NCBI GenBank assembly: GCA_009777245.1
Contig: WRMF01000009.1
Location: 1-64,000, forward strand
Direction of reading: 5' to 3'
DNA length: 64,000 nucleotides
From: Betaproteobacteria bacterium
GTDB taxonomy: Bacteria > Pseudomonadota > Gammaproteobacteria > Burkholderiales > Rhodocyclaceae
Of this stretch, positions 10,383 through 25,762 are shown one piece after another; the first letter of the stretch is position 1; every line of letters starts with the position of its first letter. The position numbers and the translations under genes are program-made. The notes under the pieces were generated by a model. It was not told the origin of the DNA. It made no database searches and was given only the letters and a program-made list of their open reading frames with translations.

Positions 10383-10768
10383 TGATTTATGGCATCGGCA
10401 CGGACATAGCCGCGACCGCAAGGCTGGAGCGTTTGTTTGTCCGCCACGGCGAGGCGGCGCTGAAAAAAATTCTGACCCTTGCCGAGCAGGCGGAATTTCC
10501 GCAACGGGGTCTTGCGGCGCAGGGGCGTTTTCTGGCGCGGCGCTGGGCGGCGAAAGAAGCCTTTGCCAAGGCGCTAGGCACCGGGCTTTGTTATCCGGCA
10601 ACCTTGACCAACATTGCAGTCACGCATGACGAAGCCGGGCGTCCTTTCTTCGTGTTCGCGCCTGTCCTGACTGAACACCTTGCGAGCCTTGGCCTTACGG
10701 CGCATCTTTCCATCAGCGACGAAAAAGCCTATGCTCTGGCGTTTGTCGTTTTGGAGCGTGTATGTTGA
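10382..10768 (+). CDS. acpS: Holo-[acyl-carrier-protein] synthase AcpS
   Basis: AcpS transfers 4'-phosphopantetheine from CoA to the serine of acyl carrier protein. The 128-residue protein begins with IYGIGTDIAATARLE, where the aspartate of GTD binds Mg2+, and contains FLARRWAAKEAFAKALGTG with the second metal-binding Glu, then the C-terminal LSISDEKAYALAFV. Its stop codon lies inside the start of nagZ (7-base overlap), so it is probably translated from a shared pdxJ-acpS-nagZ message. Confidence 0.96.
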   Translation: MIYGIGTDIAATARLERLFVRHGEAALKKILTLAEQAEFPQRGLAAQGRFLARRWAAKEAFAKALGTGLCYPATLTNIAVTHDEAGRPFFVFAPVLTEHLASLGLTAHLSISDEKAYALAFVVLERVC

Positions 10769-11796
10769 TCGGCCCTTTCATGCTGGACATTGCGGGCGAG
10801 AGCCTGAACGCTGCGGAGCGCGAGCGGGTAAATCAACCGCTCGTCGGCGGCCTGATTCTCTTTTCCCGCAATTACAGCTCAATCCCCCAGCTTGATTTGC
10901 TGATTCGGGAAATTCGCGCCCTGCGTAGCCCATCCCTGCCGCCGCTCTTGATCGCGGTTGACCACGAAGGCGGGCGAGTGCAACGCTTTCGGGAAGGCTT
11001 TACCCGCTTGCCGCCAATGCGGCGTTTGGGCGAGCGTTGGGAGGAAGACGCGGACGCCGCCATGAGCGAGGCGCGGCAAATCGGCTATCTGCTGGCGGCT
11101 GAACTTCGCGCCCATGACATTGATTTTTCCTTCACGCCTGTGCTTGACCTTGATTATGGCGTATCCAGCGTGATTGGCGACCGCGCCTTTCATCATGACC
11201 CGGATGTGGTTATCGCGCTGGCACAGAGCCTGATTGCGGGGCTACAGCACGGCGGCATGGCTTCCTGCGGCAAGCATTTCCCCGGACATGGGGCGGTTGC
11301 GGCTGATTCCCATCTGGAAACGCCGCTTGACCCACGCAAACTGGCGGAACTCGCCGCCGACCTGAAACCTTTTCGCGCCTTGCCTCTGGCAGCCGTCATG
11401 CCCGCGCATGTTATCTATCCGCAGGTCGACGCGAACACAGCCTGTTTTTCGGACTTCTGGCTCAACTATCTTAGAGGTGAACTTGGCTTTCAGGGCGCGA
11501 TATTCAGCGATGACCTGTCCATGCAGGGCGCGTGTATGGCGGGCGATATGCTCGCTCGCGCCGAAGCGGCCTATGGCGCGGGTTGCGACATGCTCCTGAT
11601 CTGCAATGCCCCCGAAGAAGCGGATTATGTTTTGCGCAACTGGCGCGGCAAACCTGATAAAGAACGGAGCGGGCGAATCAGCCGCTTGTTGCCGACTGCT
11701 GCCGCGCCCGATAGGGAAACATTGCAGACTATGCCGGTTTATCGGGAAGCGGTCGCGGTGGCGCAGCGTCTATGTCTTCGACTAGATAAATTTTGA
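10762..11796 (+). CDS. nagZ: Beta-N-acetylhexosaminidase NagZ
   Basis: NagZ is a cytoplasmic glycoside hydrolase of family 3 that removes N-acetylglucosamine from imported 1,6-anhydro-muropeptides in peptidoglycan recycling. The 344-residue protein shows the one-domain GH3 layout: GGLILFSRNY, AVDHEGGRVQRFREGFT, the loop GKHFPGHGAVAADSHLETP with the catalytic Asp/His pair, and the nucleophile aspartate in FSDDLSMQGA. No signal peptide is seen, as expected. A second, membrane-anchored GH3 protein lies at 30312-31703. Confidence 0.96.
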   Translation: MLIGPFMLDIAGESLNAAERERVNQPLVGGLILFSRNYSSIPQLDLLIREIRALRSPSLPPLLIAVDHEGGRVQRFREGFTRLPPMRRLGERWEEDADAAMSEARQIGYLLAAELRAHDIDFSFTPVLDLDYGVSSVIGDRAFHHDPDVVIALAQSLIAGLQHGGMASCGKHFPGHGAVAADSHLETPLDPRKLAELAADLKPFRALPLAAVMPAHVIYPQVDANTACFSDFWLNYLRGELGFQGAIFSDDLSMQGACMAGDMLARAEAAYGAGCDMLLICNAPEEADYVLRNWRGKPDKERSGRISRLLPTAAAPDRETLQTMPVYREAVAVAQRLCLRLDKF

Positions 11797-12946: not shown

Positions 12947-13333
12947 ATGAAACTTGGTTACACCATTCTTTACGTTGAAGATGTCGCCAAAACACTCGGG
13001 TTTTACGAGCAGGCTTTTGGATTGAAACGAAAGTTTTTGCATGAAAGTGGCGATTTCGGCGAACTGGACACAGGGAACACCGCGCTTGCATTTTCATCGC
13101 GCCGCCTGATGAAGCAACTGGGTAAAAATCCTTCTCCACCAGATAGCGAAGCGCCTTGCTTTGAAATCGCGCTGGTGACCGATGACGTTGCAGTTGCGCT
13201 CAAGCAGGCGATTCTGGCAGGCGCTCGTCTGGTGCAAGACGTCGAGGAAATGGCTTGGGGTCAAACGACCGCCTATGTCGCCGACCCTGATGGCTATCTC
13301 GTCGAAATATGCTCGCCGGTTATTGAGGATTAA
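12947..13333 (+). CDS. VOC-superfamily (glyoxalase/bleomycin-resistance-like) protein, cassette 1
   Basis: The 128-residue protein has the paired beta-alpha-beta-beta-beta pattern of vicinal-oxygen-chelate proteins: LGYTILYVEDVAKTLGFYEQAFG at the N-terminus and a second unit ending VADPDGYLVEICSP, with a Glu in the usual metal-ligand position. Members include glyoxalase I, antibiotic-binding and dioxygenase proteins, and the substrate here cannot be read. The gene starts 46 bases after the attC core and fills its cassette. VOC proteins are recurrent cargo of integron arrays, and a second one lies at 16320. Confidence 0.85.
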   Translation: MKLGYTILYVEDVAKTLGFYEQAFGLKRKFLHESGDFGELDTGNTALAFSSRRLMKQLGKNPSPPDSEAPCFEIALVTDDVAVALKQAILAGARLVQDVEEMAWGQTTAYVADPDGYLVEICSPVIED

Positions 13334-13372
13334 GGATCATATGTAGAAGTTCCAACTTGATCTGACAATCCT

Positions 13373-13446
13373 CGCTCCGGCAAGCGGAGGTGGTATACTT
13401 TGCGGATCGTGCGTTCGATTGAGCGTGTGTTCGGTTTCGCCAAGCG
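13373..13446 (+). promoter_or_regulatory. Conserved pre-attC module, copy A
   Basis: This 74-base stretch precedes attC 2 and recurs before five other 88-bp attC sites. It holds a small stem (CGCT..AGCG) and TGG-TATACT at 13391-13399, an extended -10-like box pointing to the next cassette. No -35 is evident. Confidence 0.45.
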
Positions 13447-14074: not shown

Positions 14075-14098
14075 CTACCCTGCCATTCAACCCGGACG
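14075..14098 (+). other. Possible attC half-site relic
   Basis: Directly after the cassette 2 stop the sequence CCATTCAACCCGGACG occurs. It nearly equals the left half of attC 4 (14773-14788), but no matching right half follows; instead the conserved pre-attC module begins. It may be the scar of a replaced or fused attC. Confidence 0.4.
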
Positions 14099-14170
14099 CT
14101 CTGGCAAGCAGAGGTGATATTATTCGCGGGTCGTGCGTTCGGTTGGGCTTATGTTCGGTTTCGCCAAGCG
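14098..14170 (+). promoter_or_regulatory. Conserved pre-attC module, copy B
   Basis: This copy keeps GCGGGTCGTGCGTTCGGTTG and TTCGGTTTCGCCAAGC. Its -10-like box reads TGA-TATTAT (14115-14123), so the hexamer differs from copy A but stays close to TATAAT. Confidence 0.45.
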
Positions 14171-15265: not shown

Positions 15266-15289
15266 GCGTATGACTTCGCAACCGCATCC

Positions 15290-15363
15290 CGCTCTGGCAA
15301 GCAAAGGCGGTATAATTTGCGGGTCGTGCGTTCGGTTGAGCGTGAGTACGGTTTCGCCAAGCG
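15290..15363 (+). promoter_or_regulatory. Conserved pre-attC module, copy C
   Basis: The -10-like hexamer here is a consensus TATAAT (15311-15316). The preceding trinucleotide is CGG rather than TGN, so this copy lacks the extended element. Confidence 0.45.
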
Positions 15364-15468: not shown

Positions 15469-16110
15469 ATGGAACTTACGTCGCTCTTCATAGCAACGCT
15501 CAAGCCCCTGCTGTGGCTCTTACCGCTGCTGATCGTTGTCGCCATTCTCAAGAGACCTTGGTTCAAGGGCACTATGGGAGAGCGCCGAGTCAAACGCCTA
15601 ATCGGGAGGCAACTGAACCCGTCTATTTATAGAGAGTTCTCGAACGTTACTGTACAAACCGATGATGGAACCACCCAGATCGACCACATCTACGTCTGTC
15701 CTTTCGGCGTTCTCGTGATCGAGACAAAGAATATGAGCGGTTGGATTTTCGGTGGAAGGAATCAAGCCCAGTGGACACAAACCATCTACCGGAAAAAGGT
15801 GAAATTTCAGAACCCACTGCGACAGAACTACCGCCACATCAAAGCGCTTGAGTCGCTGCTTGACCTTCCAACCGAGTGCTTCAAGTCTATTGTCGTTTTC
15901 GCTGGCAATTGCACGCTCAAAACAGAAATGCCAGACGAAGTCTGTAGAACTTCCGATCTTATCAAGTATATCTACTCAATTGACGCCCGGATATTTTCGG
16001 ATGCGCAGGTTGACGACATCTGCAACAAGATAATATCATTTCGACTTGAACCGACCCGGCAAGTCCATCGTGACCATGTTGAAAACCTCAAGCGTAGGCA
16101 TCGTGCGTAA
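15469..16110 (+). CDS. NERD-domain protein, cassette 5
   Basis: The 213-residue protein has one N-terminal membrane helix (LLWLLPLLIVVAIL, residues 13-26) followed by a NERD (nuclease-related) domain: GTMGERRVKRLIGRQL, then TTQIDHIYVCPFGVLVIETK, where D-E-x-K matches the restriction-endonuclease-like active site. NERD proteins are predicted nucleases whose targets are mostly unknown. The gene begins 5 bases after the second core-like motif downstream of degenerate attC 5. A membrane-tethered nuclease fits a defence or signalling role, but that is inference. Confidence 0.85.
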   Translation: MELTSLFIATLKPLLWLLPLLIVVAILKRPWFKGTMGERRVKRLIGRQLNPSIYREFSNVTVQTDDGTTQIDHIYVCPFGVLVIETKNMSGWIFGGRNQAQWTQTIYRKKVKFQNPLRQNYRHIKALESLLDLPTECFKSIVVFAGNCTLKTEMPDEVCRTSDLIKYIYSIDARIFSDAQVDDICNKIISFRLEPTRQVHRDHVENLKRRHRA

Positions 16111-16115
16111 CATCC

Positions 16116-16192
16116 CGCTCTGGCAGGCGGAGGTGGTATACTTTGCGGGTCGTGCGTTCGGTTGGGTTTGTGTTCGGCACTCCGCCCAGGCG
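16116..16192 (+). promoter_or_regulatory. Conserved pre-attC module, copy D
   Basis: TGG-TATACT at 16134-16142 is followed by TTGCGGGTCGTGCGTTCGG. The 3' part differs from other copies (CACTCCGCCCAGG in place of TTTCGCCAAG). Confidence 0.45.
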
Positions 16193-16319: not shown

Positions 16320-16709
16320 ATGCTTGTCCAGTCGCTATCCCCCTGCATCACCACTACCAAGGTGACGGAATCCCGCGATTTCTATGTGAAGCACTTTGGA
16401 GCCAAGGTCACATTCGATTGTGGCTGGTACGTTAATCTCGAATTTGGCAAGGGGGCTTCCCTCCAATTCATGACCCCGCAGCCCGATCATCCAGTCTGCA
16501 ATCCTGTCGGCTTGACGTACAACTTTTGCGTTGCAGATGTCGATGCTGAGTTTCAATTGCTTGCGGCTTCCGGTCTGGCTGCCCTCATGCCCTTGGAAGA
16601 TCATTCTTGGGGAGATCGCGGCTTCGCAGTTCAAGACCCAAACGGAGTTGTTCTGTATATCTACTCTGAACGGGAACCTGACCCCGAGTTCAAGCAGTAC
16701 TACAAATAA
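16320..16709 (+). CDS. VOC-superfamily protein, cassette 6
   Basis: A strong AAGGAG lies upstream of the ATG. The 129-residue protein has the two VOC repeats: SLSPCITTTKVTESRDFYVK and, in the second half, WGDRGFAVQDPNGVVLYIYS with the closing acidic ligand. The central NLEFGKGASLQFMTPQ supports a compact binding protein like those for bleomycin or fosfomycin, but the ligand is not predictable. It is clearly different in sequence from the VOC protein of cassette 1, so the two are separate acquisitions rather than a duplication. Confidence 0.85.
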   Translation: MLVQSLSPCITTTKVTESRDFYVKHFGAKVTFDCGWYVNLEFGKGASLQFMTPQPDHPVCNPVGLTYNFCVADVDAEFQLLAASGLAALMPLEDHSWGDRGFAVQDPNGVVLYIYSEREPDPEFKQYYK

Positions 16710-17437: not shown

Positions 17438-17492
17438 CCCGTTCATTCTCTTGCGCTGCATCCGTTCAATGTTCGGCCTCGCGATCACATCC

Positions 17493-17566
17493 CGCTCCGG
17501 CAAGCGGAGGTGGTATGCTTTGTGGCTCGCGCGTTCGGTTGAGCGTGTGTTCTGTTTCGCCAAGTG
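17493..17566 (+). promoter_or_regulatory. Conserved pre-attC module, copy E
   Basis: The box reads TGG-TATGCT (17511-17519). Elsewhere the copy diverges by single bases (TGTGGCTCGCGCG for TGCGGGTCGTGCG). Confidence 0.42.
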
Positions 17567-17654
17567 TCCTAACAACATGTTCAACCTCGCTCCCTTCGGT
17601 CGCTGGACACCCAATCGCTTCGCGCTTGGGTGCCGGTTAACATAAACGTTAGGC
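17567..17654 (+). other. attC site 8 (88-bp type), left border of the restriction-modification cassette
   Basis: TCCTAAC left core and GTTAGGC right core with both inner boxes intact (TGTTCAACC, GGTTAACA). Confidence 0.88.
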
Positions 17655-17724
17655 TATGTACGAAGATCTGCTACCTTGGTTTTTAAGTGATAGCGGGTTG
17701 GCACGACCGAGGGGGCGGGTGCGA

Positions 17725-17761
17725 TTGACAGAACCTCCGAAATATTCGATAATCGAATATT
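17725..17761 (+). promoter_or_regulatory. Methyltransferase promoter overlapped by a perfect palindrome
   Basis: TTGACA (17725-17730) and GATAAT (17748-17753) are 17 bases apart, a near-consensus sigma-70 promoter. The -10 lies inside a perfect 21-base palindrome (17741-17761): arms AATATTCGAT and ATCGAATATT around one central A. A protein bound there would block the promoter. The predicted transcript start is near 17760, 24 bases before the methyltransferase ATG. Which protein binds (the cassette controller or the methyltransferase itself) is not shown by sequence. Confidence 0.75.
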
Positions 17762-17783
17762 ATCACTAGAGACTCGCTCCACA

Positions 17784-20120
17784 ATGAATCTCCAGCAAGC
17801 ATTAACGGATGAATTCGAAGGACTAATTGGATTCAGTGTAGATTTGCCGATCGAATACAGGCGGGTGTTTAAGGCTTTGTGCTGTCATCTGGCGAAACGC
17901 AAACTACGAACTCGTAGCGAACGTCGAAATATATTGATTTCACATATCAACTCGAAGTTTGATATCAACCGAGAGGGCATTGCTGCAGTTCTTGCTCGGG
18001 CAGCGTCCCGTGGGCTAGTCTTCAATTTTCATGAGAAAAACCTTATCCAGAGAGCGTTCGATTTGCGCGATAAGGCAGCTTTTGCAGATGCTGTCAGGAA
18101 GGCAAGAAACGATCACGGTCTCCATAGTTTACTTTGCCAGCTCTTTACTCCCGCCACCGAAGAGGAAACACTCGCTCATTTTCGAGCAGAAGTCACGAAT
18201 CCATCAAGACTTCGCGTGGAAAAGGGAGTGCGCCCGATAGGTAATGAAATTCTTCTTTCTGCACTGTCCGCGTTTGTTTTTTCTGCAGCAGATGAAGAGG
18301 TAATGCATGAATTCTTCGATTCCGCATACAGCCATGAAAGATACGAGCGGTCTTTCTGGCTGCAGTTGAGAAAGCTACAACCACAGTTCTACTCGCGAAC
18401 GAGGACACTGGATATTGCTAAGGTTGACCAAAATTTTGCCGATTCGTGCGGCTCACTTGAAACGCTGCGATTAATTCTATTCGGCCAGACGGCATTGAGC
18501 TATAAGATGCTCGAAAATCACGGGTATTTAGCCTATTGGATAGAACCGCTAGTTATTGACGGACGAAATGTAACATGGGAAATTTGCTCCGACATCATGC
18601 TTTTTGCTGAAAAGCATGATGAGGTAATGCTCACCAACACATACTTTAAAACCAGCCAAATCAAAGCCGAGACCGTCTCTTACGTAAACGGCATTGATGA
18701 GTCTAATGCCCGATTTGACCTTGCAAATGAAGGGTTTACATACAAAGACATATTTGTCTGCATTCCCTCGACTGGCTCTCTTGTCGGCTCTGAGTCGCTT
18801 CTACTTCTTTTTCAAAAGAACAAGAGGGACGAAACATTAATCCCATGCCCTGCATGCAGAACGCACAATGTTCAAGGAAATTCCTACCCGAGCTTGGGTG
18901 TACGCAGTTGGGAGTGTCGAAATATTCTTTGCCCGGATAGAAGCAAATACAATCGAGGAAAGCGATATTCGTTTAAATCCTTGCTGATGCAGGAAGCTAT
19001 TGATGAGATAGAGAGCCAAATTTCACCAGAGTCGATTCGAAGATGGTCGCGAGACATTCAGATTGGTCGCACAGCTGACGATGCCGTCGAAATGTTAATT
19101 CGCCATTATTCATTGCATGGAGATGGGGTATATCTTTTTGGTATCAATGATCCGAATGACTCGCTAGGCCGTCGAATTGTGCGACACGAAGATATTATGA
19201 CTACCGAAGAGAACCTCGCATCGTGCTTCTTCGACTCGCATTGGTTCAAGAGGTATGCATTTTCTTCGGACGTAGGAGGGCGGGAGAACGCCAGTAGTAT
19301 CAATCAATGCTGCATTGGTTCCTTGACTATGGTTCACGGCGACTCATGTACAGTGCTCGAAGGATTTCCGGATAACTATTTCGATGGAGCAGTGACTTCC
19401 CCTCCCTATTTCAACGCACGAGAGTATTCTCAATGGTCGAACATCTATTGCTATTTGCACGACATGCTCTCTATTGCAAAGAGTTGCTTTAGAGTCCTCA
19501 AACCAGGGGCAACATATCTTTATAATATTTTCGACTACTTCGACAATGAGCGCAGTATTGTTTTTTCAGCCATGGGCGAGAAACGTCTAGTACTAAGTGC
19601 CTACACTGCGGACTTGTTCCGACGTGTAGGATTTCAGCTGGCCGGAGCCATAACTTGGGATAAAGGTGAAATCGAAGGAAAACGTGGGTTCAATGCTGGT
19701 AATTTTTCACCATATTATCAGGCTCCATTTAATTGCTGGGAACATATTCTCGTATTTGTAAAACCGCCGACGGATATGGCACAGAGAGTACTGAGCAACA
19801 TGCCAGCAGTCCTCCGTGCTCAACCAGTGAACAAAATGGTAAAGGGCAAGAATACACACGGCCACACCGCACCTTTCCCGGCGGATATTCCAAATCTCTT
19901 ACGTCCCTTCTTGCCAAAAGGGGGGAGAGTACTAGATCCCTTTGGAGGAAGCGGCACAACTGCTCGTGCGCTCGATGGCTTCGTGAGCGAGACGATCTGT
20001 ATCGAGAAGAAGAAGGAGTATTTTGACCTCGCTCTTAATCTCTTTATGTCCTATCGTAGCGCACTGAATCAGGGAACACATCAGGCGATTCTATCCAGAG
20101 AGGAAATCGTTGGCGCATGA
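17784..20120 (+). CDS. Site-specific DNA methyltransferase, beta class (probably m4C or m6A), cassette 8
   Basis: The 778-residue protein is modular. The first 340 residues match nothing I know. A zinc-ribbon-like region follows (CPAC at 355-358 and C378/C383). The catalytic domain is C-terminal: motif IV TSPPY (538-542) comes before the AdoMet-binding motif DPFGGSGTT (718-726), the order of beta-class amino-methyltransferases; TSPPY favours N4-cytosine but does not prove it. ETICIEKKKEYFDLA after motif I is typical. It converges on the HNH gene with a 40-base tail-to-tail overlap. Base composition is lower in G+C than the flanking chromosome, pointing to foreign origin. Confidence 0.88.
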   Translation: MNLQQALTDEFEGLIGFSVDLPIEYRRVFKALCCHLAKRKLRTRSERRNILISHINSKFDINREGIAAVLARAASRGLVFNFHEKNLIQRAFDLRDKAAFADAVRKARNDHGLHSLLCQLFTPATEEETLAHFRAEVTNPSRLRVEKGVRPIGNEILLSALSAFVFSAADEEVMHEFFDSAYSHERYERSFWLQLRKLQPQFYSRTRTLDIAKVDQNFADSCGSLETLRLILFGQTALSYKMLENHGYLAYWIEPLVIDGRNVTWEICSDIMLFAEKHDEVMLTNTYFKTSQIKAETVSYVNGIDESNARFDLANEGFTYKDIFVCIPSTGSLVGSESLLLLFQKNKRDETLIPCPACRTHNVQGNSYPSLGVRSWECRNILCPDRSKYNRGKRYSFKSLLMQEAIDEIESQISPESIRRWSRDIQIGRTADDAVEMLIRHYSLHGDGVYLFGINDPNDSLGRRIVRHEDIMTTEENLASCFFDSHWFKRYAFSSDVGGRENASSINQCCIGSLTMVHGDSCTVLEGFPDNYFDGAVTSPPYFNAREYSQWSNIYCYLHDMLSIAKSCFRVLKPGATYLYNIFDYFDNERSIVFSAMGEKRLVLSAYTADLFRRVGFQLAGAITWDKGEIEGKRGFNAGNFSPYYQAPFNCWEHILVFVKPPTDMAQRVLSNMPAVLRAQPVNKMVKGKNTHGHTAPFPADIPNLLRPFLPKGGRVLDPFGGSGTTARALDGFVSETICIEKKKEYFDLALNLFMSYRSALNQGTHQAILSREEIVGA

Positions 20121-20938
20121 GAGTATTTGCTGCCAGGCTCAATTTCATATAAACCGATTTGCTGGAGCCATCTAGCCATTGCCCAAGCTTCTTCAAATCT
20201 AATGTTCGCCATCGTGAGACCATACTCACGACAAAGGTTATGAAAACATCTGTAATTGCTAGGTCGATGCACAAACAAAAGCCACATAAGACCAGCTTCA
20301 GCAGTCAGGAATGTCAGTCCACCGTTTGCGTGCGAAGGTCTGCGGATAACATTGTGTCTTCTGCATCGAAGAATCATGTTGTCCAGGCGGTCGGCAACAT
20401 CTTCAAGGTCTTTCTGAGTACGTATACTTCCAGACGTTAGTGCGTTATATAAATCCCCCGAAATATTATCCAGGAGTTGCGCCTGTACGCCTGTGTAGTT
20501 GTGCCGATTAAGTAGGCCTACCAATCTCGCCTTAATTTCGGCCACAATGCGTGCGCAGTCTTGCCGAACCAAGTCTGGAATCTCTTTTTGCACAGATAAA
20601 CCCACGTCTCCAACAAACTCTTTCGGAATTACGTGGTCAGCCTGCAGGTCTACGCGAGTACCGCAATCAGCGCATTTTCCATTTTGCATAAAATGCCAGG
20701 TACGCACTGCTTCCCAGCATTTTCGGGGTGGAAAGTGGCGTTGAAATGATTTTTTGGACGCTATTGAGGTGCCAACCTGAGACGGATTAAGGTTTCCCAA
20801 AGTGGTCGCTGTTACCTCTCGCCAAGATATTATCCCTTCTTCAATAAGCTCCTCAAGGAACATTTGCCAGTGCTCCTCTGTCCAATCGGCTCCGTTTGCC
20901 GGATATTCAGAAGCATGCTGTTCTCCCTCACCAGTCAT
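20081..20938 (-). CDS. HNH-type endonuclease, presumed restriction enzyme of the cassette
   Basis: The 285-residue protein (ATG at 20938, MTGEGEQH) contains an HNH nuclease core: CADCGTRVDLQADHVIPKEF (Cys89, Cys92, Asp101-His102) and NMILRCRRHN (Cys192, His195), a zinc-supported beta-beta-alpha metal fold. The N-terminal part (DWTEEHWQMFLEELIEEGIISW) may recognise DNA or form the dimer. Its start overlaps the controller stop by 11 bases, so the two are read from one transcript. Placement between a controller and a methyltransferase makes restriction the natural role; the target site is unknown. The frame is open 34 codons further upstream inside the controller, but MTGEGE is the better start. 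Confidence 0.82.
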   Translation of the reverse strand: MTGEGEQHASEYPANGADWTEEHWQMFLEELIEEGIISWREVTATTLGNLNPSQVGTSIASKKSFQRHFPPRKCWEAVRTWHFMQNGKCADCGTRVDLQADHVIPKEFVGDVGLSVQKEIPDLVRQDCARIVAEIKARLVGLLNRHNYTGVQAQLLDNISGDLYNALTSGSIRTQKDLEDVADRLDNMILRCRRHNVIRRPSHANGGLTFLTAEAGLMWLLFVHRPSNYRCFHNLCREYGLTMANIRFEEAWAMARWLQQIGLYEIEPGSKYSHAPTISSLDRIA

Positions 20939-21203
20939 TCGATGTCTCCTCGGTGTGTCCTTCGAGAGTTGCTTCAAATTTCGAAACAAATTCAGATAAG
21001 CCAATACCCAAAGCAGCACAGAAAATGCGGAGTTCAGCAACGTCTAGTCGTCTTTCCCGACGCTCAATCTTGCTTATCAGAGACTGCTCGACACCCAGCC
21101 GCGTAGCCAACTCGACTTGAGTAAGGCCAGCCTCTTTCCGCGCTGTGCGCAGCAATGAGACGAGCGCCGAGTAATCATCGCTGTGTAGGGGAATTGGAAT
21201 CAT
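20928..21203 (-). CDS. XRE-family controller (C) protein of the restriction-modification cassette
   Basis: The 91-residue protein is almost entirely a Cro/CI-type helix-turn-helix domain: LVSLLRTARKEAGLTQVELA, then TRLGVEQSLISKIERRERRL and DVAELRIFCAALGIGLSEFV. This size and fold match the C proteins that delay nuclease expression until methylation is complete. I start it at the ATG at 21203 (MIPIPLHS). A longer frame to 21320 would run across the presumed operator. It is co-directional and overlapping with the HNH gene, the classic C-R arrangement. Confidence 0.85.
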   Translation of the reverse strand: MIPIPLHSDDYSALVSLLRTARKEAGLTQVELATRLGVEQSLISKIERRERRLDVAELRIFCAALGIGLSEFVSKFEATLEGHTEETSNDW

Positions 21204-21244
21204 TTTGCTAAGATAAAGCCGATTTTTGAATATGCCAAAATCGA
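21203..21244 (-). promoter_or_regulatory. Controller-gene promoter with operator-like inverted repeat
   Basis: Reading the minus strand, TATCTT lies six bases before the controller ATG, so a transcript would start at or next to the ATG and be leaderless, as reported for several C-protein genes. Just upstream, arms CGATTTT and AAAATCG (21220-21243, plus strand) flank a 10-base centre with GAATAT, a plausible binding site for the controller. Confidence 0.5.
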
Positions 21245-21536
21245 CTATTATTGCCATTCGAAACGCGGACTCGTTGGTCTTGTGTCTTGCGCACAAGCGG
21301 ACGGCCTGCGACCGGCGCATACCTTGTACGCAAGATATTCAAGTTATCACATCTCAGACGTTGACCGCTTACCCGATGAGGTCGTTCCAATGACCTACAA
21401 GGATGGCCTCCTTCAACACCCTGCTGGCTTCACAGTGACTCTCGGCAAAACATCCGGCAACCTCTCCGGCGGGAGAGTCGAACACAAGCGTGTTAGCGAG
21501 TTTACTGTAGAGGAGAGGAGAAAAAACATTCCAAGA
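21245..21536 (+). other. Right part of the restriction-modification cassette, no convincing gene
   Basis: A GTG-initiated frame from 21282 runs through attC 9 to 21686 and includes DVDRLPDEVVPMTYKDG and HPAGFTVTLGKTSG, which look protein-like. It has no ribosome site and ends in attC-derived sequence. It could be the remains of an earlier cassette. Confidence 0.3.
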
Positions 21537-21612
21537 TCGACTGGTAAGCGAAAGCGGTATACTTTACGGATTGCGCGTTCGGTTGGCCTTGTACCTGAGC
21601 ACTACCCATGTG
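21537..21612 (+). promoter_or_regulatory. Conserved pre-attC module, copy F (diverged)
   Basis: TATACT at 21558-21563 is kept, with GCGCGTTCGGTTG after it. The remainder (CCTTGTACCTGAGCACTACCC) departs from the other five copies. Confidence 0.4.
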
Positions 21613-21700
21613 TCACAACAACATGTTCAACCCCGCTCCCTTCGCTCGCTGGACATCCAATCGCTTCGCGCTTGGGTGCCGGTTAACATAAACGTTAGGT
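21613..21700 (+). other. attC site 9 (88-bp type), right border of the restriction-modification cassette
   Basis: The left core is altered to TCACAAC, whereas the rest (TGTTCAACC, GGTTAACA, right core GTTAGGT) is intact. Confidence 0.82.
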
Positions 21701-21718: not shown

Positions 21719-22243
21719 ATGCATATTTCAACAAATCTTCCGGGTTGCGTTCTTCGCTCATGGCGGCCTGAGGACAAAGCTGCCCTGCTGCTGCACGCCA
21801 ACAATCGCAATATCTGGCGCAACCTCACCGAGATGTTCCCGCATCCATACACTGAAACCAACGCGGTTCAGTGGCTCTCTATCGCATCGAGTCCCGGTAC
21901 CAGCATTTATCTAGCCATTGAGGTCGGCGGTGAGGCTGTTGGTGGCATTGGCATCATCGCAGGCACAGGCATCGGCCAGTACACCGGCCAGTTTGGCTAT
22001 TGGTTGGGTGAGTCATTGTGGGGCAGAGGTATCGCTACAGCATCGGCCAGTGCCTTGGCAACACATGCACTTGCTCAACCGCAGTTCGTGCGTCTCGAAG
22101 CGCCTGTGTTTGCCTGGAATCCTGCTTCCATGCGAGTGCTGGAAAAAGTTGGCTTCATCAGAGAAGGCGTCCTGCGCAGGAGCGTATTCAAAGATGGGCA
22201 ACTTATTGACAATGTTATGTATGCCAAAGTACGCGATGCCTGA
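21719..22243 (+). CDS. GNAT-family N-acetyltransferase (RimJ/RimL type), cassette 9
   Basis: The 174-residue protein has the GNAT order of motifs: LRSWRPEDKAALLLHANN at the N-terminus, YLAIEVGGEAVGGIGI, GYWLGESLWGRGIATASASA (the acetyl-CoA pyrophosphate loop RGIATA), LEAPVFAWNPASMRVLEKVG and FIREGVLRRSVFKDGQ. This is the RimJ/RimL branch, which acetylates protein N-termini or small molecules including some drugs; the substrate is unknown. The stop codon falls within the left core of attC 10, as is common for tightly packed cassettes. Confidence 0.9.
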   Translation: MHISTNLPGCVLRSWRPEDKAALLLHANNRNIWRNLTEMFPHPYTETNAVQWLSIASSPGTSIYLAIEVGGEAVGGIGIIAGTGIGQYTGQFGYWLGESLWGRGIATASASALATHALAQPQFVRLEAPVFAWNPASMRVLEKVGFIREGVLRRSVFKDGQLIDNVMYAKVRDA

Positions 22244-22307
22244 CTTTGCGCTCAAGCCGGACAGACCCGCCTGCGGCGGGTTTGCCGCTTGGCTTTGAAC
22301 GTTAGTT
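22238..22307 (+). other. attC site 10 (70-bp type), end of the array
   Basis: The left core is GCCTGAC. The right core reads GTTAGTT, departing from consensus at the outermost bases, as expected where the last cassette joins non-integron DNA. The mfd ATG follows after two bases. Confidence 0.82.
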
Positions 22308-22309
22308 TT

Positions 22310-25300
22310 ATGATGAACGCGCAGACTTTATCCCTTCTTTCCCTTGCCCCGTCGCCCTTGCCTGGTCGCAAGGTGGAATGGCAGGTTGCGGGCGGCTCTG
22401 CGGACGCTCTGCTGCTCGCCGACATTGCCAGGCAAAGGGCGGAAAGTCCGGGCATATTGACGGTAATCACGGCCAATGCCTTGGATGCGCGGCGGTTGCA
22501 GGAAGAAATCGCCTGGTTTTTTCCGGCATCCCGTCCCCATCTTCTGCCGGATTGGGAGACCCTGCCTTACGATAGTTTTTCGCCGCATCAGGATTTGATT
22601 TCCGAACGCCTGGCGACCCTTTGGGCAATGTTGCGGGGAGAGTGTCGGGTATTGCTGGTTGCGGCGACAACGGCGATAGCCCGCTTTCTGCCGCCTTCCT
22701 TTCTGGCGGCTTATGCCTTTTCCTTTGCCAGAGGCGAAAAATTCGACAACGAGCGATTCATCAATCAATTGACATTGGCGGGTTATGCCCGCGTGACCCA
22801 GGTTGCCGCGCCCGGAGAATTCGCGGTGCGCGGCTCCCTGATTGATCTTTATCCGATGGGGGAAAAATCGCCTTTTCGCATTGACCTCTTTGATGACGAA
22901 ATTGAATCCATCCGTCTTTTTGATGTGGAGAGCCAGCGCACGCTTTGTCCGGTGGAGGCGGTTCGTCTTCTGCCGGCGCGGGAATTTCCGCTGGACGAGC
23001 AGGGAAGAGCCACCTTTCGCCGCAAATTTCGCGCATGTTTTGAAGGCGATCCCGGCAAAAGCCGGGTGTACAAGGATGTTTCCGCAGGCATTGCCAGCGC
23101 GGGCGTCGAATACTTCCTGCCCCTGTTTTTTGACGAGACCGCGACCCTGTTCGATTATCTGCCGTCCGGCTCAGTGCTGGCGACGCATGGCGACGTAGCG
23201 GGAGCGTTGGAAGCGTTCCGGCAGGATACCCGCACTCGCTACGACATGCTGCGCGGCGATTCCGTCACCCACGGAACCAGACTGTTGCCGCCGGAGGCAC
23301 TGTTTCTTTCTTCTGAAGAATTTTTCACCAGGGTAAAGGAGAGAGGGCGGGCGGAGATTATTCGTTCGCCCGTATTAGATGCCTTGCCGGTCGCGGTCAA
23401 TCGGCGTTCCGAAAACCCGCTTGCCGCTCTTGAAGGTTTTCTGGCGAGCTTTCCGGGGCGTGTGCTGGTTGTAGCCGAATCCGCCGGACGGCGGGAGACG
23501 ATGGCGCAATTTTTCGCCGGATGTGGTCTTTCCCTTCCGGTTGTTGATGATTTTGCCGCTTTTCTGGGCGGCGAAGAAAAGGCGGCTCTGGCGATTGCGC
23601 CCTTGCAGGCGGGTTTGCGCCTTGACGACAAATTGTCTCTCATCAGCGAAAACGAGCTTTACGCGGATCGTCCCCGCTCCAGGCAGCGCCGGAAAAGCAG
23701 GCTGGATAACTGGCTGCGCGACCTTGCCGAACTGAAAGTGGGCGCTCCGGTCGTGCATGAATCGCACGGAGTAGGGCGTTACATGGGATTGGCGCGGATG
23801 GATACAGCCGAAGGGCAGGTGGAATTTCTGGAAATCCATTATGCGGGGGATGCAAAGCTCTTCGTGCCGGTTGCCCAGTTGCAGGTGATTGCCCGCTATT
23901 CCGGCGCAGACCCGGAACATGCTCCTCTGCACATATTGGGTTCCGGGCAGTGGGAAAAAGCAAAAAGAAAGGCGGCGATACAGGCGCGGGACGCGGCGGC
24001 GGAATTGCTCGCCCTTTACGCCCGTCGCGCCGCCCGAAAAGGTTACGCCTTCGAGTTTGGAGCAGCGGACATTGAAGCGTTCGCGGCAGGTTTCGGCTTT
24101 GAGGAAACGCCGGATCAGCAGGAAGCCATTGACGCGGTGTTGGCGGATATGAGATCAGACAAGCCGATGGATCGGCTTGTCTGCGGGGATGTCGGTTTCG
24201 GCAAGACCGAAGTCGCGTTAAGGGCGGCTTTCGCGGCGGTGGAGGACGGCAGGCAGGTGGCGATTCTCTGCCCGACCACCCTGTTGTGCGAGCAGCATTT
24301 CCGCACATTTACGGATCGCTTTGCCGACTGGTCGGTCAGGATAGCGGAGCTTTCCCGTTTCAGGAGCAAAAAGGAATCAGCGGAGACGCTCTGTGATCTG
24401 GCGGAAGGAAAAATTGACATTGTTCTCGGCACGCACAAACTGCTCGGCAGGGAGGTGAAATTCGCCCGCCTTGGCCTTGTGGTGATTGACGAGGAACATC
24501 GTTTCGGGGTACGGCAGAAAGAAAGGTTGAAGGCGCTACGCGCCGAAGTGGATGTATTGACCCTGACCGCTACCCCGATTCCGCGCACTCTTGCCATGAG
24601 TCTGGAAGGCTTGCGCGATTTTTCCGTTATTGCCACCGCGCCCAACAAACGGCTTGCCATCAAGACTTTTGTTTCCCCTTCTTCCGGCGGACTGATTCGG
24701 GAAGCGGTGCTGCGCGAACTGAAGCGAGGCGGACAGGTTTATTTTTTGCATAACGAAGTCGCCACTATCGAAGCAATGCGAAATAGAATTGCCGACCTTG
24801 TGCCGGAGGCTACCATTGCGGTCGGACATGGGCAAATGCCGGAGCGCGAGCTGGAACGGGTAATGCGCGATTTCATGGGGCAGAGAATCAATCTCCTGCT
24901 CTCCACGACCATCATCGAGACGGGCATTGACAATCCTCATGCCAATACCATTCTCATCAATCGGGCGGATAAATTCGGCCTTGCCCAGTTGCACCAGTTG
25001 CGGGGAAGGGTAGGGCGTTCCCACCATCAGGCTTACGCTTATCTGTTGGTGGAAGAGGGGATGACAAAGCAGGCGCGGCAACGTCTGGAGGCAATTCAGG
25101 CTATGGAAGAGCTGGGTTCCGGCTTTTATCTTGCCATGCACGATCTGGAAATTCGCGGCGCGGGGGAGGTGCTGGGGGAAAACCAGGCGGGCGAGATGCA
25201 GGAAGTTGGCTTCAATGTATTTCTGGATATGCTGAATCGCGCGGTTGCTGTCTTTAAGGCGGGCAGGGATGTGAGCGCCGATGATCTGACCGCGCCGCTT

Positions 25301-25762
25301 GGCCTGTCCGGTGAAATTCACCTTTCCGTACCGGCGCTGTTGCCGGATACTTATTGTCCTGATGTTGAGGAACGTCTGAACCTCTATAAACGGCTGGCCA
25401 ACTGCGAGCGGGACGATGAAATTGACGCGATGCAGGAGGAATTGATAGACCGCTTCGGCGTATTGCCCTTGCAGAGTTGCTCCCTTATTGCGACGCATCG
25501 CTTGCGTCTTTTCATTCGTCCTTTTGGGGTGAAAAAGCTGGAGGCTGCCGATGATCGCATTCTGGTTTCCTTTAATCCTGATTTTTCGAGTGATTCAGCT
25601 TTGGACCCGACCAGGATTATCGCGCTCGTGCAAAAGGATAGGCGTTATCGCTTCGCGGGGCAGGACAGAATCGCGCTGGACGGGCATTATCCGACGCTGG
25701 AAGAAAAAGTCGCGGCCATTAAGGAAATGTTCGCCGCTCTGGAAAGGAGTGATACAGGATGA
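22310..25762 (+). CDS. mfd: Transcription-repair coupling factor Mfd
   Basis: Mfd removes RNA polymerase stalled at DNA lesions and recruits UvrA. The 1150-residue protein has the full layout: UvrB-like N-terminal modules (LLPDWETLPYDSFSPHQDLI), the polymerase-interacting domain (GAPVVHESHGVGRYMGL), a RecG-like translocase with Walker A GDVGFGKTEVAL, DEEH in VVIDEEHRFGV, TATPIPRTLAMS and the TRG-like region ending near 980, and the C-terminal UvrA-masking domain. Two ATGs stand at 22310 and 22313. Neither has a ribosome site, because the sequence before them is attC 10. The array has evidently displaced whatever promoter and leader mfd had. Confidence 0.97.
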   Translation: MMNAQTLSLLSLAPSPLPGRKVEWQVAGGSADALLLADIARQRAESPGILTVITANALDARRLQEEIAWFFPASRPHLLPDWETLPYDSFSPHQDLISERLATLWAMLRGECRVLLVAATTAIARFLPPSFLAAYAFSFARGEKFDNERFINQLTLAGYARVTQVAAPGEFAVRGSLIDLYPMGEKSPFRIDLFDDEIESIRLFDVESQRTLCPVEAVRLLPAREFPLDEQGRATFRRKFRACFEGDPGKSRVYKDVSAGIASAGVEYFLPLFFDETATLFDYLPSGSVLATHGDVAGALEAFRQDTRTRYDMLRGDSVTHGTRLLPPEALFLSSEEFFTRVKERGRAEIIRSPVLDALPVAVNRRSENPLAALEGFLASFPGRVLVVAESAGRRETMAQFFAGCGLSLPVVDDFAAFLGGEEKAALAIAPLQAGLRLDDKLSLISENELYADRPRSRQRRKSRLDNWLRDLAELKVGAPVVHESHGVGRYMGLARMDTAEGQVEFLEIHYAGDAKLFVPVAQLQVIARYSGADPEHAPLHILGSGQWEKAKRKAAIQARDAAAELLALYARRAARKGYAFEFGAADIEAFAAGFGFEETPDQQEAIDAVLADMRSDKPMDRLVCGDVGFGKTEVALRAAFAAVEDGRQVAILCPTTLLCEQHFRTFTDRFADWSVRIAELSRFRSKKESAETLCDLAEGKIDIVLGTHKLLGREVKFARLGLVVIDEEHRFGVRQKERLKALRAEVDVLTLTATPIPRTLAMSLEGLRDFSVIATAPNKRLAIKTFVSPSSGGLIREAVLRELKRGGQVYFLHNEVATIEAMRNRIADLVPEATIAVGHGQMPERELERVMRDFMGQRINLLLSTTIIETGIDNPHANTILINRADKFGLAQLHQLRGRVGRSHHQAYAYLLVEEGMTKQARQRLEAIQAMEELGSGFYLAMHDLEIRGAGEVLGENQAGEMQEVGFNVFLDMLNRAVAVFKAGRDVSADDLTAPLGLSGEIHLSVPALLPDTYCPDVEERLNLYKRLANCERDDEIDAMQEELIDRFGVLPLQSCSLIATHRLRLFIRPFGVKKLEAADDRILVSFNPDFSSDSALDPTRIIALVQKDRRYRFAGQDRIALDGHYPTLEEKVAAIKEMFAALERSDTG

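Follow-up and report, generated by a model that had tools for sequence, protein, structure and literature searches.

A probable C-controlled Type II restriction-modification system in a three-gene, 4-kb integron cassette

Described systems closest to the cassette

Type II restriction-modification (R-M) systems governed by a controller (C) protein are the closest described counterparts of the locus analyzed here, a cassette encoding a methyltransferase (M), a C protein and an endonuclease (R) within a 64,000-nucleotide stretch of DNA (the window). In Esp1396I the M, C and R genes are separate, C comes before R, and operators lie upstream of both M and C-R (PMC3758141, PMC4824078). The window presents the same arrangement, and the fold of its C protein is matched in the PDB by such controllers. 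It differs from Esp1396I in having one box per promoter, with no OL/OR tandem seen at C, in a box sequence that is not of the GACT type, and in its location in an integron array, whereas Esp1396I is carried on a plasmid. Csp231I shares with the window the convergence of M against C-R (PMC4824078), but the overlap of C and R in the window, the CTAAG-n5-CTTAG box of Csp231I and the fact that no C binding was shown at the M promoter of Csp231I set the two apart. C-REase fusions are known from R-M systems under C control (PMC3850674). A fusion like that of CR.NsoJS138I is seen in one relative of the window system, the Competibacteraceae contig L010, where C and R share one reading frame; the nuclease of CR.NsoJS138I is PvuII-like, whereas here it is HNH, and C and R of the window are separate, overlapping genes.

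R-M genes have already been reported in integron cassettes (PMC9892861, PMC12444791), and the phage-defence cassettes of Vibrio, Xanthomonas and mobile integrons likewise hold defence genes between attC sites (PMC12444791, PMC12409362, PMC9892861). According to one review (PMC12409362, citing Darracq 2025), Type II and Type IV restriction genes in integrons are significantly size-reduced, and systems with more than two genes are conspicuously missing. The window cassette is unlike the restriction genes described there, with three genes, 4 kb, full-length proteins and regulation of its own. A sequence-only reading of the window had called the cassette far from the usual kind. This applies to its size and strandedness; R-M cassettes as such are not new. 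What is already known includes R-M cassettes, C proteins and C-R fusions, and the window cassette, though assembled from such known parts, stands out as a genuine exception by its size, its number of genes and its self-regulation.

The cassette, its borders and its genes

The sequence-only reading had placed a 778-residue beta-class methyltransferase, a converging HNH nuclease and an XRE controller between attC8 and attC9, in a cassette of about 4 kb with genes on both strands, and all of this is borne out (Table 1). The cassette measures 4,046 bp from the recombination point of attC8 to that in the R' box of attC9 (21694/21695), with M on the forward strand and R and C on the reverse strand. 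The overlap claimed between the C and R genes amounts to 11 nt (ATGACTGGTGA), C lying upstream of R; the convergent 3' ends of M and R overlap by 40 nt. The gene calls stand with two corrections, as R and C are both shorter than their longest open frames. R probably starts at ATG 20938 (285 aa, with GAGGAG upstream), in agreement with its relatives, and not at 21040, and C probably starts at ATG 21203, giving 91 aa as in Duganella and not 130 aa.

Table 1. Positions of the genes, recombination sites and predicted regulatory elements of the cassette in the window
Feature	Position	Strand	Basis or remark
attC8, left cassette border	17566..17654	-	recombination point in R' at 17648/17649
Predicted M promoter	17725..17753	+	TTGACA-N17-GATAAT, 11/12 consensus
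C-box at M promoter	17741..17761	.	perfect palindrome AATATTCGATAATCGAATATT, over -10
M, 778-aa beta-class DNA methyltransferase	17784..20120	+	PF01555, PADLOC MTase_II, structure model
R, 285-aa HNH endonuclease	20081..20938	-	family alignments; PF01844 in relatives
C, 91-aa XRE controller protein	20928..21203	-	HTH_3 E 7e-13; PDB controllers matched
Predicted C-R promoter	21210..21238	-	TTGGCA-N17-TATCTT
C-box at C-R promoter	21229..21249	-	AATAGTCGATTTTGGCATATT, over -35; identical 21 bp in Duganella
Gap between C-R promoter and attC9	21250..21611	.	~360 bp, no recognised gene
attC9, right cassette border	21612..21700	-	R'' box degenerate (TCACAAC)

The two borders are the eighth and ninth of ten attC sites found between 12830 and 22307. 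They have the same orientation and both fold on the bottom strand, as cassette borders do, attC9 more poorly (-25.9 kcal/mol) than attC8 (-38.2 kcal/mol). Their covariance-model scores (104.5 bits for attC8 and 96.1 bits for attC9) are high by construction, the model having been made from the ten sites of the window. The same model matches sites of this type elsewhere in the assembly, at G000:C28:7539-8915 (L055) and G000:C11:39595-39683 (L056). Upstream of the R'' box, six of the ten sites share about 70 bp of conserved sequence (13366-13445, 14090-14169, 15283-15362, 16112-16191, 17486-17565 and 21532-21611) that includes a short inverted repeat, for example CTCCGGCAAGCGGAG, so that the repeated unit at these six sites, about 160 bp, is larger than the folding attC.

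On one side of the array lie a nagZ-like gene (10762-11796) and, after it, a single uncharacterised ORF; on the other side lies mfd (22289-25762). The M, R and C genes have a G+C content of 43-49% (up to 52% around C), against 56-60% for mfd. Other cassettes of the array encode two glyoxalase/VOC-family proteins (12947-13333 and 16320-16709), a GNAT acetyltransferase (21719-22243, after attC9) and a NERD (nuclease-related domain) protein (15469-16110, E 1.6e-32), the last possibly another defence cassette. Only below-cut-off matches to an integron integrase occur in the assembly itself, which is 93% complete. The array is therefore classed as a CALIN, an attC cluster with no integrase, rather than as a complete chromosomal integron, in which intI accompanies the array. 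Of the 20 other genomes in the genus, 8 have an integrase match at E 1e-40 or better; two of these matches are partial or interrupted. Within the gap that precedes attC9, positions 21255-21560 have no match among 149 other genomes of the order. A 134-aa frame at 21282-21686 was considered as an additional cassette gene; it has no family match and a weak codon-position signal, the TAA that ends it is a conserved element of this type of attC, and we do not accept it as a gene.

M matches PF01555 (N6_N4_Mtase) at E 3e-20 and the PADLOC MTase_II model PDLC03236 at E 7e-93, the latter through residues 336-750, the zinc-ribbon and methyltransferase region, against a model of 912 positions. A helical N-terminal region is followed by a Cys4 zinc-ribbon-like motif (about 355-383), TSPPY (538-542) and DPFGGSGTT (718-726). 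Alignment with relatives finds both catalytic motifs intact, and TSPPY precedes DPFGGSGTT, as it does in beta-class enzymes. In the predicted structure (pLDDT 78.7, pTM 0.80), residues from about 510 to 761 match the beta-class methyltransferases TTHA0409, M.MboIIA and M.PvuII in the PDB, with Z values of 17.7-19.7. SPPY is typical of N4-cytosine methyltransferases; as M bears TSPPY, it probably modifies cytosine at N4 (m4C). M equals its relatives outside integrons in length, and its gene differs from that of Duganella by 0.23/0.16/0.62 at codon positions 1/2/3, a purifying pattern. Searches of plasmids and phages return matches to the methyltransferase domain only. The PADLOC model may be linked to M.BslI. 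The BslI endonuclease, unlike anything in the window, has two kinds of subunit (PMC4081073), and the BslI relation was discarded as a basis for recognition-site prediction, the site not being transferable.

R is recognized through its family. PF01844 is matched by 10 of 11 family members, at best with E 2e-8, which identifies the family as HNH by way of the relatives, whereas window R alone reaches only E 0.2 because a 69-residue insertion lies inside its HNH motif. The CxxC, ADH, N and CxxC/H positions are conserved in the family alignment, and D101, H102, N187, N196 and H203 are invariant. At the fourth zinc ligand, window R has His in place of Cys; this change and the insertion in the HNH core mean that the activity of window R is not certain. 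R is longer than most of its relatives, and its predicted structure (pLDDT 59) is too poor for a structure search. Plasmids yielded no match to R and the PDB nothing credible. C, in turn, matches the R-M controllers C.BclI, C.Esp1396I and C.AhdI in the PDB, and its transcript is predicted to be leaderless (-10, six bases, ATG) in both the window and Duganella.

Co-conservation and the operator

Relative loci were found with R alone as the query. A scan of 84,980 species genomes returns nine, in Duganella, Competibacteraceae, Nostoc and mostly Firmicutes/Clostridia MAGs. M adjoins R in all nine, and C is matched by tblastn in eight; in the ninth, Nostoc, a weak XRE match lies directly before R. 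Genomes G053 and G424 hold all three genes, and a viral contig (L036, 6007-9391) has convergent R and M, no C homologue and an adjoining unrelated XRE gene. M is thereby adjacent in 12 of 12 R relatives, which come from several phyla and the one viral contig, and C in 11, which argues that M, C and R are one system. The sequence-only reading had named methyltransferase and nuclease relatives belonging to unrelated systems as the result that would overturn it; we made that comparison, and its claim survives. The strength of the match of M to PF01555 and the co-occurrence of the three genes in other phyla are more than chance would give.

In Duganella the genes converge as in the window, and at most other loci M diverges from C-R. 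A serine-recombinase-like gene (L007, 11936-12661) adjoins the Duganella module, as judged by eye, which suggests that the module is mobile by another route there. The R family is rare: in overlapping samples, a strong match occurs in one of 368 other genomes of the class, in one of 397 of the phylum and in none of the 20 other genomes of the genus or the 199 others of the family. For the R-M family as a whole (HNH nuclease, zinc-ribbon methyltransferase of about 780 aa, C-box of its own), we found no characterised member.

The C-box is a 21-bp inverted repeat resembling AATATGCGATTTTGGCATATT, with AATATGC-n7-GCATATT as its best form rather than the GACT-type box of C.PvuII and Esp1396I. It is conserved at the C promoter, as in C-controlled systems, and occurs in the M-C region of the relatives at matching promoter positions, weakly in Nostoc (6 mismatches); the viral contig, which has no C, has no box. 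Compared with a query box taken from another genome, G053, the window box on the C side has 2 mismatches and that on the M side 4. No third box with up to 6 mismatches occurs in the 64-kb window, and 20 first-order Markov shuffles of the cassette contain none. In all eight loci with a recognised C promoter, the distance from the start of the box to the start of the C -35 element is exactly 11 bp; for the M -35 element it is 19 bp in six divergent loci. The divergent loci have one common box, and each of the two convergent loci that possess C has the box twice. The promoter scan by itself does no better than chance; the case for the promoters rests on this conserved spacing from box to promoter. 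As the M box covers the -10 of its predicted promoter, it should repress M. The C box lies over a -35, where a single site more often represses than activates; regulation at C could have either sign.

The co-conserved genes and the conserved operator and promoter anatomy support what the sequence-only reading had proposed, internal promoters and one complete, controlled R-M system in a single cassette. Judged by its sequence, the locus is very probably a complete Type II R-M system under C control that was captured as a single integron cassette or within one. The genes for the methyltransferase and the endonuclease are separate and adjacent; the methyltransferase has intact catalytic motifs; the endonuclease family is HNH with invariant residues, the window copy carrying the motif insertion; and a small HTH protein is encoded upstream of R, overlapping it.

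The system may work as follows. M would protect the host by methylating a short DNA site, probably at N4 of cytosine, and R would cut the same site when unmethylated. On entry into a cell, M would be made at once from its near-consensus promoter, and C and R would be produced from one coupled transcript driven by a weaker promoter. As C accumulates, it would bind the palindromic box over the M -10 and presumably shut M down. It may also bind the second box over its own -35, where the geometry favours autorepression and activation is possible. The cassette would have been captured by an integron integrase.

Alternative readings and the meaning of the cassette

A real R-M module may instead have entered an existing cassette otherwise, by transposition or illegitimate recombination, and never have moved as a cassette, a reading that we consider doubtful though far from negligible. 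The covariance model finds no attC of this type at the loci of the 12 relatives (made from sites of this genome, it may miss other types), and the module therefore normally lives outside integrons. The roughly 360 non-coding bp of the 3' part, which reach from the module to attC9, would fit insertion of the module into a cassette that was already there, as opposed to capture of the whole as a single unit, and homology with Duganella ends, by eye, just outside the boxes. Yet canonical attC sites form both borders, M is oriented as cassette genes usually are, and no transposase gene is seen in the cassette.

A quite improbable reading concerns function: M and C would work, and R, inactivated or altered by its insertion, would leave a solitary methyltransferase and a regulator. 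The altered zinc ligand and the poor score against PF01844 point this way, but the catalytic residues are conserved, and Duganella R (68% identity) carries the same insertion. The two R genes differ by 0.23/0.18/0.57 at codon positions 1/2/3, a purifying pattern with third positions changing about three times as much as second positions, which argues that this form is maintained. Somewhat more improbable still is a different defence or regulatory system, in which an HNH nuclease (PtuB-like, modification-dependent or abortive) is accompanied by an accessory methyltransferase. R relatives do give weak HMM matches to the PtuB and PDC-M01B HNH nucleases, PADLOC assigns no restriction enzyme to window R, and neither PADLOC nor the PDB offers a characterised homologue of it. 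The match of window R to these models, however, extends over the initial part of the HNH motif only, there is no ATPase partner as in Septu, and M, C and R with C-boxes are the gene set of C-controlled Type II systems.

The proposal that the cassette is addictive and stabilises the whole array is a weakened hypothesis. The usual agent of cassette loss is not present in the assembly (93% complete), so IntI-driven loss is not expected there. Stabilisation would require that losses take place and that R kills when they do, and addiction would affect only deletions that include the cassette. We regard as improbable the full form of the idea, in which a full-size, self-regulated, addictive three-gene module is carried and shuffled as one cassette independently of the array promoter, kills the cells that lose it and so helps to hold the surrounding array in place.

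The R-M family, with its HNH nuclease, its large zinc-ribbon methyltransferase and its own C-box, spans several phyla. In the published picture, the defence systems favoured in integron cassettes are small and have one or two genes; a three-gene, 4-kb exception with promoters and a regulator of its own shows that this size rule is not absolute. The cassette also suggests a safe way for a toxic system to join an array, in which the system controls its own expression and does not depend on the array promoter.
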